The position numbers and the translations under genes were made by a program. This document shows positions 9,512 to 17,292 of a stretch of 22,581 nt of DNA, piece by piece (position 1 is the stretch's first letter; the number at the start of each line of letters is the position of its first letter). This DNA comes from a virus. The notes beneath the pieces are model-generated. The model was given only the letters and a program-made list of their open reading frames with translations, was not told the origin of the DNA and did no database searches. The stretch lies in the IMG/VR virus record IMGVR_UViG_3300032116_001402, positions 1-22,581 of that record; one strand, 5' to 3'.

Positions 9512-10141
9512 ATGCTCGATGAGAAGTTCTACATAGAACGCATCACGAATCAAATGGCAATGGAAGTTGTTGTTGCTAATCACTATTTGCATCGCAGAGC
9601 GCCGTGTAGTTGGGCGTTTGGGATGTTTGACAAATCCAATCATCAGTTGGTTGGTGTTGTGGTTTATGGTGTTTCTGCGTCTTCGACTTTGTTGCGAGGT
9701 ATTTGTGGTGATGATGAGGCAAAGAATGTTTACGAGTTGACTCGTTTGTGGATTGACGATGATGTGCCTAAGAATGGCGAGTCTTGGCTGATTGCTAACA
9801 CGATGGGTAAGACGGACAGGGAAATCATTGTCAGTTATGCTGACAGTTCACAGAACCATGTGGGTGTGGTTTATCAGGCTGCGAACTTTATTTACACGGG
9901 TTTGTCGTCTAAGTTCAAAGACCCGAAGGTTCGTGGGTTAGAGCATCAGCATCACGCTACTTATGCAAATGGTATGACCAACAAAGAGGTTGTCGAGAAG
10001 TTTGGTGACCGTGTGTATTTTGTCGAAAGACCACGCAAGCACAGGTATGTTTATTTTGCAACTTCTAAGAGTCGGCGTAAGGTTTTGATGGGTAAGTTGC
10101 GTTATCCTGTTTTGCCGTATCCGAAAGCAGCAAGTGAATAA
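9512..10141 (+). CDS. Mom-like DNA adenine hypermodification protein (GNAT-type)
   Basis: 209 residues with the RBS AAAGGGAAAAA just before ATG. Mom proteins (phage Mu prototype) convert adenines to a bulky methylcarbamoyl derivative that blocks many restriction enzymes. Family hallmarks visible: HYLHRRAPCSWAFGMFD in the N-terminal third, the strand LVGVVVYG, YELTRLWIDDDVPKNGESWL, then SYADSSQNHVGVVYQAANF and IYTGLS, and RKHRYVYF towards the C-terminus. These correspond to the acetyltransferase-like core. The enzyme would act on phage DNA before packaging. A separate DNA methyltransferase is encoded at 16099-17292. Function of the homologue, and whether the added group is the same as in Mu, are inferred. 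Confidence 0.8.
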   Translation: MLDEKFYIERITNQMAMEVVVANHYLHRRAPCSWAFGMFDKSNHQLVGVVVYGVSASSTLLRGICGDDEAKNVYELTRLWIDDDVPKNGESWLIANTMGKTDREIIVSYADSSQNHVGVVYQAANFIYTGLSSKFKDPKVRGLEHQHHATYANGMTNKEVVEKFGDRVYFVERPRKHRYVYFATSKSRRKVLMGKLRYPVLPYPKAASE

Positions 10142-10486: not shown

Positions 10487-11128
10487 ATGAGTATCGAAGC
10501 AATGAATTTGGTTCTAAATCACTCGAAAGCGACAGGCCGAGCAAAACTTGTTTTGTTGGGTATTGCGAACCATTTTGGTGATAACGGCGCTTGGCCTAGC
10601 ATCGAGACTTTGGCTCGTTACGCTAACGCATCCGAAAGGTCTGTGAAGCGTGACATTCAGGAACTTGTAGACCTCGGTGAACTGACTGTGGATGTGAACG
10701 CTGCCCCGATGAAGTCGCAATACAAGACGAATTTGTATTGGATAAATGTTGAGGCAGGGGTGACAACTCAGGTAAGCAGGGGTGACAGTTCAGGTAAATC
10801 AGGGGTGACACCTGTTGGCACGCAAACCATCATTAAGAACCATAAAGAATCAGATACTAGACCGACACGAATTTCTGAAGATTTTTCGGTTAGTCGTGAG
10901 ATGCGAAACTGGGCTGCTTTGAACCACCCAGATGTTGACATTGACAAGGCGACTTTGAACTTTGTGGATTATTGGTTGACAAAACCGAAGAACAACACGA
11001 AACTCGATTGGAACAGGACTTGGCAGACGTGGATTCGCAACACACGCCCAGAAATCAAAAAGGGCAACAGGGTTGCTGAGAACAAGTCGGTGCTAGATGA
11101 GTTTAGGAAGCGTTATGGAAGCAACTAA
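10487..11128 (+). CDS. Winged-helix replication initiator (lambda O-like plan)
   Basis: 213 residues from the ATG after GAAAAGGGAAATT; an in-frame upstream start inside the HNH gene lacks a ribosome site. Residues 1-70 form a helix-turn-helix/winged-helix domain (LVLLGIANHFGDNGAWPSIE ... SERSVKRDIQELVDLGEL), typical of phage replication proteins. Residues about 88-112 are a flexible linker whose DNA carries three iterons. The C-terminal domain (SREMRNWAALNHPDVDIDKA ... WNRTWQTWIRNT) matches the end domain of many phage replication initiators that contacts the helicase or its loader. No Walker or primase motifs are present. The next gene is a candidate helicase loader, so together they may bring the host helicase to the phage origin. 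Confidence 0.75.
   Translation: MSIEAMNLVLNHSKATGRAKLVLLGIANHFGDNGAWPSIETLARYANASERSVKRDIQELVDLGELTVDVNAAPMKSQYKTNLYWINVEAGVTTQVSRGDSSGKSGVTPVGTQTIIKNHKESDTRPTRISEDFSVSREMRNWAALNHPDVDIDKATLNFVDYWLTKPKNNTKLDWNRTWQTWIRNTRPEIKKGNRVAENKSVLDEFRKRYGSN
10755..10817 (+). repeat. Three direct repeats (iterons) inside the initiator gene: candidate origin
   Basis: The 11-mer CAGGGGTGACA occurs at 10755, 10777 and 10800, spaced 22 and 23 bp. Copies 1 and 2 extend to TCAGGTAA at the same offset. The spacing is about two helical turns and is not a multiple of three, so copy 2 is read in a different frame; the repetition is kept at the DNA level. AT-rich sequence follows (10820-10890). Confidence 0.72.
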
Positions 11129-11471
11129 CACGGCAAGCATTTTAGAGTTTCTGTCGTTGACTGATAACCGCAAAATCACTCAGGAAAACATTTTGGCTTG
11201 GCATCAACTCATCGGTCATCTGAACTTTGATGTGGCTCGTGAGGCCGCTCACTTGGCGAAGCAGGATGACAAGATTGACTGGGTTGAGCCTAAACACATT
11301 CTGGCTAAGGCAAGGGTTGTTGCTGACCGCTTAGACACTGAGGCTCGCAGGAAACAGTCGCTTGATAAGCCAGAGCCTTTTGTTGGTTCGCCTATACCGC
11401 TGTGCAGGCATGGGGAAAGAATTGTTTTTTGTCAGCCGTGTTGTGTTGAATTGGCAAAGAAAAAGCGTTAG
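11115..11471 (+). CDS. Helicase-loader-like protein with C-terminal Cys motif
   Basis: 118 residues from the ATG at 11115, which has AGGAAG four bases upstream and overlaps the initiator end by 14 bases; an ATG at 11097 lacks a ribosome site. Residues 5-75 are helical with ENILAWHQLIGHLNFDVARE and WVEPKHILAKARVVA, a pattern of small phage helicase loaders such as G39P (helix bundle, W/H/L positions), though similarity is weak. Residues 95-112 (LCRHGERIVFCQPCC) look like a zinc-binding tail. Position right after the initiator supports a loader or replisome-adaptor role; identification is provisional. Confidence 0.45.
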   Translation: MEATNTASILEFLSLTDNRKITQENILAWHQLIGHLNFDVAREAAHLAKQDDKIDWVEPKHILAKARVVADRLDTEARRKQSLDKPEPFVGSPIPLCRHGERIVFCQPCCVELAKKKR

Positions 11472-11474
11472 TGT

Positions 11475-11786
11475 GTGGTTGTGGATGAAAACCAAGTGCT
11501 TTGTTTCAGGTGCGGATTTGTTTGGGCTGTTGCCCCAAAGAAGCGCCGTGACAGGATGCTTTGTCAGTCGTGTCGGGCTAAACCTGCCACAACAATCCAG
11601 TATGGTAAAACTCGTTGTATTAGTTGGCATGGACTTTATGCGGCTGATGGTGTGACCCCGATGCTGGATGGTGAACCATTCATGCCGGGTGAACGCACTT
11701 GTGGCCACGCAGATTGTGTGGCTTCAGGTCATCAGGTAAACCGATTATCGGCGGCTACCGATAAAACTAAAAATGAAAGGGTCTGA
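11475..11786 (+). CDS. Zinc-ribbon protein with HNH-like C-terminus (paralogue A)
   Basis: 103 residues from GTG; the start could also be the GTG at 11481. N-terminal zinc ribbon: CFRCG and LCQSCR. C-terminal part: RCISWHGLYAADG, PGERTCGHADCVASGHQVNR, with a CxxxxC-x4-H arrangement like the H/N-region of HNH homing-type proteins (CxNPxHL). The same two-part architecture recurs in 15752-16102. The catalytic residues are not complete by eye, so DNA-binding may be the actual role. It precedes the SSB gene by two bases. Confidence 0.55.
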   Translation: MVVDENQVLCFRCGFVWAVAPKKRRDRMLCQSCRAKPATTIQYGKTRCISWHGLYAADGVTPMLDGEPFMPGERTCGHADCVASGHQVNRLSAATDKTKNERV

Positions 11787-15751: not shown

Positions 15752-16102
15752 ATGTATTGCACAAGTTGTTTTAATCCGATTGATGCACAAACTTTGCGGA
15801 TGAGACGTGGCAAGGCTGCCGAGAGAACCGATTGCGGAGACTGCGCTACTGCGCTTCGCATCAAAACAAAGTATGGAGTGTGTTTCAGTCATGTGGGCGA
15901 ATACGATGAGAACGAGATTCCGATTGGTCGCACTGGTCAACCTATTCTTGCTGGTGTTCGTAAATGTGGTAACAGTGATTGCATTAATCCTGAGCATTGT
16001 GTTAGCGAACGTCTCTTAGAGCGTTTTGACATTAGTTATCGCACGGGCAAGAAACTGTCTGCTGCCGAGTTTTATCAGGTTTTAGAAAGGGAACGCCCAT
16101 GA
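15752..16102 (+). CDS. Zinc-ribbon protein with HNH-like C-terminus (paralogue B)
   Basis: 116 residues, ATG after AAAAGGGAAAG. Zinc ribbon: YCTSCF and DCGDC. C-terminal part: GVCFSHVGEYDENEIPIGRT, QPILAGVRKCGNSDCINPEH with the HNH-like CxNPEH motif. Same organisation as 11475-11786, and the only clear within-window relative. A 30-residue C-terminal extension (LERFDISYRTGKKLSAAEFY) is unique to this copy. It overlaps the methyltransferase start, so the two are likely co-expressed. DNA-binding or nuclease role inferred. Confidence 0.6.
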   Translation: MYCTSCFNPIDAQTLRMRRGKAAERTDCGDCATALRIKTKYGVCFSHVGEYDENEIPIGRTGQPILAGVRKCGNSDCINPEHCVSERLLERFDISYRTGKKLSAAEFYQVLERERP

Positions 16103-17292
16103 TTGAGTTGGCTAACGCAAAAGTATTTTTTGGTTCAAACCTTGATGTGTTGCCTACGCTGCCCGATAACTCGGTTGACAGCATTGTGACTGACCCACCT
16201 TATGAACTTGGGTTTATGGGCAAGAAGTGGGATAGCAGCGGTATTGCCTACTCGGTTAAGTTGTGGCAGGAGTGTTTAAGGGTTCTCAAGCCGGGTGGTC
16301 ATTTATTGTCTTTTGGTGGTACACGCACTTTTCACCGCATGGCTGTTGCGATTGAGGATGCTGGTTTTGAGGTGCGTGACAGCATTGCTTGGTTGTATGG
16401 GTCAGGTTTTCCTAAGTCGTTGGATGTGAGCAAGGCGATTGATAAGGCTGCTGGCGCAAAGCGAGAAGTTATTGGCCAGCGTTTCGATGGCATGAGCGAA
16501 ACTGCTATGAAACCTGATAAAGGCTGGAACGCTAATTCAATGGGTGCGACTGTGGACATTACTGCACCAGCCACAGATGAAGCAAAGAAGTGGGCTGGTT
16601 GGGGAACAGCGTTGAAACCTGCGTTTGAACCTGTTGTTGTTGCTCGTAAGCCGTTGGTGGGAACTGTAGCGGCGAATGTGTTGGAGTGGGGTGTTGGTGG
16701 GTTGAACATTGACGGCTCACGCATTGGCACGACAGATAAGTTTGGTGGCGGTGCTAAGGGCAAGTCTGGTTTTGCTGCTGGCTATGATGGCGATGGTTGG
16801 ACTGCTGGCAGTGAGCAGGGTCGTTGGCCTGCGAACATTATTCTTGATGAATACACGGCAGGGCTACTAGACGAACAAAGCGAAGATGCAAGCCGTTTTT
16901 TTTATGTATCTAAAGCCAACAAGAAAGACCGCAACGATGGACTAAGCCACCTAGAAATTAAACGCCCAGACACACGCACATCAACAGGCATGGGAACATT
17001 TGAAGAAAAAGGCGTTCAACCACAACGCAACTTCCACCCAACTGTAAAACCAACATCACTAATGGAATATTTGGTCAAACTTGTAACACCACCAAACGGC
17101 ACAGTCCTAGACCCGTTCACAGGCTCAGGCTCGACAGGTAAAGCAGCGTTGCTAAACGGCTACAAATTTATCGGCATAGAATTGACCGCAGAATACCTGC
17201 CTATCATTGAGGGAAGACTGAAACACGCAGCAGAAACCTATAAGCAGCGTTCGACAGAAGAAGAAGAAAAAGAAAAGGAAACATTGTTTTGA
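16099..17292 (+). CDS. DNA (adenine-type) methyltransferase
   Basis: 397 residues, ATG overlapping the previous stop. N-terminal catalytic motif TDPPYELGFM (D32-Y35) and C-terminal AdoMet-binding motif VLDPFTGSGSTGKAALLNGY with F/G motif about 338-347; order catalytic motif first, FxGxG motif last marks a beta-class N6-adenine or N4-cytosine enzyme, DPPY favouring adenine. Residues about 120-300 form a long insert with WGTALKPAFEPVVVARKP, a common phage insert that may be the target recognition domain. DNA marks would protect phage DNA from host restriction or affect regulation. Codon use changes abruptly near residue 255, and a run of eight T lies there. Confidence 0.87.
   Translation: MIELANAKVFFGSNLDVLPTLPDNSVDSIVTDPPYELGFMGKKWDSSGIAYSVKLWQECLRVLKPGGHLLSFGGTRTFHRMAVAIEDAGFEVRDSIAWLYGSGFPKSLDVSKAIDKAAGAKREVIGQRFDGMSETAMKPDKGWNANSMGATVDITAPATDEAKKWAGWGTALKPAFEPVVVARKPLVGTVAANVLEWGVGGLNIDGSRIGTTDKFGGGAKGKSGFAAGYDGDGWTAGSEQGRWPANIILDEYTAGLLDEQSEDASRFFYVSKANKKDRNDGLSHLEIKRPDTRTSTGMGTFEEKGVQPQRNFHPTVKPTSLMEYLVKLVTPPNGTVLDPFTGSGSTGKAALLNGYKFIGIELTAEYLPIIEGRLKHAAETYKQRSTEEEEKEKETLF

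Follow-up and report, generated by a model that had tools for sequence, protein, structure and literature searches.

What is the function of a short sequence that occurs three times inside the replication initiator gene of a virus? The stretch of DNA analysed here, a virus record of IMG/VR, is 22,581 bp long (the window), and its initial annotation proposed that these in-gene repeats, followed by AT-rich bases and a loader-like gene, are the iterons of a candidate lambda-type phage origin. The initiator protein consists of an N-terminal HTH_36 winged helix, a disordered linker and a helical C-terminal domain. It matches Pfam HTH_36 (PF13730; 7e-11, 42.2 bits, cut-off 25), this family is matched by 29 of 29 aligned sequences, and the best PHROG matches of the initiator are replication initiation families (5e-24). 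An AlphaFold2 model built on the 29-sequence alignment shows a confident winged helix at residues 1–88, with a predicted recognition helix at residues 50–63, and predicts disorder at residues 92–120, which is the segment encoded by the repeat array. A PDB fold search with the model gives weak matches, the first being 4pql ("N-Terminal domain of DNA binding protein", E 0.03) and the tenth the Rep–DNA complex 5kbj (E 0.07). The coordinates of the features are collected in Table 1.

Table 1. Features of the initiator locus, in positions of the window
Feature	Position	Strand	Basis
Replication initiator gene, 213 aa, ATG start	10487..11128	+	Pfam, PHROG, AlphaFold2 model
Predicted recognition helix ERSVKRDIQELVDL, codons 50–63	10634..10675	+	AlphaFold2 model; Ser52/Arg55 covariation
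Iteron 1, CAGGGGTGACA	10755..10765	+	Exact repeat
Iteron 2, CAGGGGTGACA, out of frame, encodes RGDS	10777..10787	+	Exact repeat
Iteron 3, CAGGGGTGACA	10800..10810	+	Exact repeat
Invariant flank of the last iteron, CCTGTTGGCACGCAAACC	10811..10830	+	Between-clade identity, low synonymous diversity
AT-rich, A-skewed stretch, candidate unwinding element	10820..10880	+	GC content
C-terminal helical domain type A (FVDYW...KLDW..TWIRN)	10895..11116	+	Model; other types in relatives
Loader-like gene, 124 aa; start at 11115 suggested by relatives	11097..11471	+	Shared PHROGs, alignment

The three copies are exact, and no further exact copy is found in the rest of the 22,581-bp window. Copies 1 and 2 have a longer 22-nt unit, GCAGGGGTGACAnnTCAGGTAA, in common. 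The three copies succeed one another at steps of 22 and then 23 bp, and the computed frames are 2/0/2, in agreement with the annotated spacing and with the statement that copy 2 is shifted out of the frame common to copies 1 and 3; the translations are GVTT, RGDS and GVTP in order. When codons were shuffled synonymously with the protein kept, none of 1000 shuffles gave an array as good as that of the window. The AT-richness next to the array is modest in the window, with a GC content of 37% at 10820–10879; the 50 bp after the array have 40% GC, which is the 18th percentile among the 50-bp segments of the gene. An AT-rich stretch lies downstream of the array in nearly all relatives, in which the 50 bp after the array have 24–42% GC and mostly fall in the lowest decile of the gene. 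Folding of the array into hairpin structure is not in excess (z 0.68), and promoter and terminator signals are not above chance.

A protein search of viral contigs with search peptides free of the repeats gave 69 relatives, three of which have no intact linker (L068 and L069 are cut at contig ends, and L070 is frameshifted before the array). At least three copies of AGGGGTGAC (3–4 copies) are present in 66 of the 66 relatives with an intact linker, and one copy is always out of frame. One clade has three copies with steps of 22 and 23 bp and frames 2,0,2, and the other has four copies with steps of 21, 22 and 23 bp and frames 2,2,0,2; L062 and L067 carry variants of this scheme. A second search gave 19 more relatives, and at least three exact copies are present in 18 of these; in the weakest, L096, two copies are exact and a third has a single mismatch. 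Two further scans of viral contigs mostly gave contigs already in the set and hardly increased the power, and a scan of genome contigs for the window family gave no match.

The linker alignment of the relatives shows that the residues between the copies vary while the repeat cores stay constant. The synonymous pairwise difference in core codons is 0.00, as against 0.46 outside them in clade A (n = 6, permutation p 5e-5) and 0.32 in clade B (n = 40, permutation p <1e-5), and the low synonymous diversity extends beyond the last copy to about codon 120. The Gly codons of the in-frame copies are all GGG, a codon that makes up about 10% of Gly codons elsewhere. A search of about 388 kb of flanks gave no 10-mer core beyond the initiator gene; four copies that seemed to lie elsewhere belong to the frameshifted initiator of L070. 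Since the cores are invariant at synonymous sites, the linker residues vary and no copies lie outside the gene, the repeats are conserved as DNA, as had been argued from the shifted copy in the window alone; the check on homologues that had been proposed with that argument found no relative with an intact linker but without repeats. The initiator of L070 (4001–4290) is frameshifted ahead of an intact four-copy array, reflecting either a sequencing error or a broken gene, and the initiator gene of L062 (3661–4251) contains an opposite-orientation copy, TCACCCCTA, between the first two iterons, besides four direct copies.

Covariation between protein residues and repeat bases was analysed in 57 arrays, leaving out 24 weak and 9 few-copy arrays. 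GGGGTG.C served as the anchor for aligning the cores, its variable base being masked, and the scan covered all columns of the winged helix. Residues 55 and 52, both of which belong to the initial part of the predicted recognition helix and are Arg and Ser, respectively, in the window, are the top two covarying columns of the domain by mutual information (z 7.8 and 7.4; the next column reaches 4.6). Base x of GGGGTGxC is A with Arg55 in 27 arrays and with Lys55 in none, and T with Arg55 in 7 and with Lys55 in 15 (Fisher 1e-7); thus, Lys55 occurs only with GTGTC (15 to 0) and Arg55 mostly with GTGAC (27 to 7), and Ser or Thr at residue 52 goes with base A (25 to 1). As a control for shared descent, independent pairs differing in the base were taken from a maximum-likelihood tree for which the helix columns had been removed from the alignment. 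Residue 52 changes in the same way in 5.8 of 9 such pairs and never in the opposite way (median p 0.03 in a small test), and residue 55 does so in 4.3 of 7 pairs, again never in the opposite way (median p 0.125 in an underpowered test). Sister pairs illustrate the change: L185 (NVQK, GTGTC) vs L393 (SVQR, GTGAC), L177 (NVQK, GTGTC) vs L210 (TVQR, GTGAC), and L173 (NVQK, GTGTC) vs L195 (NVQR, GTGGC). This covariation is the strongest non-assay evidence available for the notion that the winged helix may read the repeats of its own gene. The four relatives L158–L161, with initiators at 2501, have near-identical domains outside the helix, yet no two of them agree in the helix or in the repeat core, which we read as a probable case of rapid re-specification of the origin.

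When the two main clades are compared at the DNA level, their identity is 0.6–0.8 over the winged helix, rises to 0.93–1.00 at 10787–10826, with 1.00 at 10807–10826, and is 0.3–0.4 from 10867 on. Because of this fall in identity, the C-terminal domains of the two clades are regarded as unrelated; the flank CCTGTTGGCACGCAAACC is identical or nearly so between the clades with these unrelated domains. A module junction is therefore located just behind the array and the AT-rich stretch, at the end of the latter. The type of C-terminal domain is linked to the next gene. Type A, found in the window, is followed by a loader-like gene coding for 121–148 aa, type B by a gene for a 409-aa DnaB (PF03796, 3e-73), and a third type (L102–L107) by another DnaB gene. 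DnaB is present in 7 of 7 records of type B or C and in 0 of 12 type-A or fused records (ten type A and two fused forms), an absence that is not proof since these records are fragments or of uncertain completeness. Such a joint change of the C-terminal type and the next gene is expected if the C-terminal domain recruits the helicase, either via a loader or directly. The annotated order of an initiator with in-gene iterons, AT-rich DNA and a putative helicase-recruitment gene holds across the family.

The product of the putative loader gene has a C-terminal CxH...CxxCC motif. Its description as loader-like is backed by synteny, by PHROGs shared with the annotated helicase loader of Microbacterium phage Lesiram and by the absence of DnaB noted above, but not by fold or Pfam matches: the protein has no Pfam match, and since its PDB fold search gave no significant match, no kinship with G39P, DnaI or lambda P is claimed. 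In L067 (4001–4807) and L098 (3001–3726), the initiator itself ends in the CxHG...CxxC tail of the loader (CEHG...CxKC), and no separate loader gene is next to it; these initiators are possibly initiator–loader fusions or remnants.

The array and the AT-rich stretch very probably constitute an in-gene iteron origin that follows the plan of lambda O and RepA_N on an HTH_36 domain. The iterons would be the binding sites of the winged-helix N-terminal domain of the initiator encoded around them, and initiator molecules bound to the array would sit about two helical turns apart. The adjoining AT-rich DNA would then open, and the C-terminal domain, on its flexible array-encoded linker, would recruit the helicase. 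In the window, host DnaB may be recruited through the small downstream loader-like protein, and in relatives with other C-terminal types the phage-encoded DnaB may be recruited. What the computations show is conservation at the DNA level, the geometry of the array, the residue–base covariation and the linkage of the C-terminal type to the next gene; that the initiator binds the array, opens the strands and recruits the helicase, and that the array acts as an origin, is inferred.

Other explanations of the repeats have to be set against these data. If the repeats were operators, through which the initiator or another regulator represses the initiator gene while replication starts elsewhere, covariation between helix and site would look alike, and in-gene sites can indeed also regulate. 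However, the sites are about 270 bp into the gene and away from its start, no copies exist elsewhere in the window or in the flanks searched, the winged helix, the array and the AT-rich flank travel together, and a putative helicase-recruitment gene is what changes along with the C-terminal domain; moreover, proven systems of the same plan use their arrays as origins (PMC7466680, PMC5703833). Operators are thus improbable, and a joint for recombination is still less probable. According to the latter explanation, the conserved block serves C-terminal module swaps, and its low diversity results from recent exchange rather than protein binding. The block does end exactly at the point where the clades diverge, and over its final 30 bp or so it is just as invariant as the iterons, but a joint does not explain the periodic copies and their number, the frame rotation in distant phages or why the repeat base covaries with the recognition helix. 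A joint and binding sites may nevertheless coexist in the block.

Selection on a repeated linker peptide has the least to recommend it and is rejected because of the out-of-frame copy and the frozen synonymous sites. GVT does recur in copies 1 and 3 and likewise in the additional copy of clade B, as a peptide repeat would demand, yet the out-of-frame copy encoding RGDS is kept equally exactly, GGG is a rare Gly codon elsewhere, the linker is predicted to be disordered, and the copies in phages of the Galaxy and Andrew type rotate through all three frames.

In-gene arrays with an established origin function are known from lambdoid phages and RepA_N plasmids (PMC7466680, PMC5703833). Lambdoid phages have iterons and an AT-rich tract in the middle of O, and in Stx phages extra iterons add 13 residues to O (PMC7466680). 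A RepA_N Rep protein with the origin-encoded linker deleted still functions in trans, and the chimera pPR9, in which the N-terminal domain is HTH_36 and the origin region has been replaced, is capable of autonomous replication (PMC5703833). The oriL of SPP1 is inside gene 38 and has direct repeats and an AT-rich element, the loader being gp39 and the helicase gp40 (PMC6316719). As controls, the array method recovers the lambda iterons at their annotated steps of 20, 24 and 23 bp and four staphylococcal RepA_N Rep boxes with 23-bp steps and frames 1,0,2,1.

The window shares with lambda O/P the iterons in mid-gene between the DNA-binding and C-terminal parts and the AT-rich DNA next to them, and its next gene may serve helicase loading as P does; the lambda steps are close to the 22 and 23 bp of the window. 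Unlike lambda, the window has an HTH_36 initiator with the core AGGGGTGACA, the next gene is not Phage_lambda_P, and relatives have DnaB itself. Homology to lambda O was considered and rejected: neither the initiator nor its aligned relatives match PF04492 (Phage_rep_O), which lambda O itself matches as a control, and hhalign gives E 0.25 over 26 columns. The term lambda-type thus stands for the plan, at least three near-identical in-gene repeats conserved as DNA with an AT-rich neighbour, modest in the window, but not for the protein family. RepA_N systems of the pSK41 type resemble the window in that an N-terminal winged helix is combined with a swappable C-terminal domain and the origin repeats lie within the linker-coding part of the gene, and differ in the box sequence and the RepA C-terminal domain, which the window initiator lacks; RepA_N (PF06970) is matched by neither the initiator nor its relatives. 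SPP1, by its description, resembles the window plan in its in-gene repeats, AT-rich element and phage loader with DnaB-type helicase, but it carries loader and helicase together, whereas the window family appears to have one or the other. The Rep of pUSA03 (L407:101–1060) matches RepA_N (PF06970, 2.5e-32), and pUSA03 was used as a RepA_N control because the Rep in the record examined carries this domain, although a review cites this plasmid as a pPR9-like HTH_36 hybrid.

Arrays above the null are also present in other phages. The Arthrobacter phages Marchesin, Galaxy and Andrew have 4–5 copies of GGGGTGMAC at 22-bp steps, which rotate through all three frames, and arrays above the null occur in Microcystis phage Mvi-Yong1342-1, Pseudanabaena phage Pam5, Klebsiella phage RAH1 and phage C72C1 as well; KellEzio and a Vibrio phage are borderline, and Decurro, Swenson, Kels and Lesiram have no array above the null. 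The initiators of Decurro-type Arthrobacter phages and actinobacterial prophages, annotated as replication initiation O-like, belong to the same winged-helix family (54–57% domain identity). Like the window, most members of this wider family, from IMG/VR and from actinobacterial genomes (Microbacterium, Curtobacterium, Labedella and others), carry arrays in the linker, but with a 19/24/23-bp spacing and a lineage-dependent core and recognition helix. Some have only two recognisable copies, and the array of Decurro itself is degenerate. The steps of lambda O (L406:435–519) nearly equal the Decurro-type steps, the initiators having no detectable sequence homology.

An in-gene iteron origin is a known kind of origin; what is new is its HTH_36 version, the swappable helicase-recruitment half and an apparent recognition code. 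No papers on in-gene iteron arrays in HTH_36 initiators of actinobacterial phages, on a residue–base code or on an in-gene iteron origin for actinobacterial phages were found in the open-access literature. Few origins seem to have been mapped in actinobacterial phages; for mycobacterial prophages, RepA-dependent and RNA-based origins have been reported (PMC7157519). If the present assignment is true, the origin of many actinobacterial phages and prophages could be located to within about 130 bp from the linker of one gene.

We lean slightly towards a further generalization, in which the HTH_36 winged helix and the linker iterons form a portable origin-specificity cassette. Such a cassette would be recoded via two helix residues and matching changes in every repeat, with the geometry kept, and would be plugged into interchangeable C-terminal domains that recruit the host helicase via a loader or the phage's own DnaB. 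Ser/Thr52 with Arg55 would specify GTGAC, Asn52 with Lys55 GTGTC, and Asn52 with Arg55 perhaps GTGGC. The specificity between initiator and origin would then be predictable from two residues, and origin specificity and incompatibility would be predictable by sequence across many actinobacterial phages and prophages. Since the binding site would lie inside the protein's own gene, one could follow directly in the sequence how a DNA-binding protein and its site change together, making the initiator and its site an unusually clean system for this question. The swap between a loader-type and a helicase-type partner would likewise be a natural experiment on helicase recruitment by initiators.

The surroundings of the initiator gene contain further genes of interest. 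A small gene with CxxC pairs (VDENQVLCFRCG...), which has no family match, follows the loader gene in type-A phages (11475–11786 in the window) and lies directly after the fused initiators in relatives. A Mom-like DNA modification gene (PF25680, 8e-44) is two genes upstream of the initiator at 9512–10141, and a DNA methyltransferase gene is found at 16099–17292.
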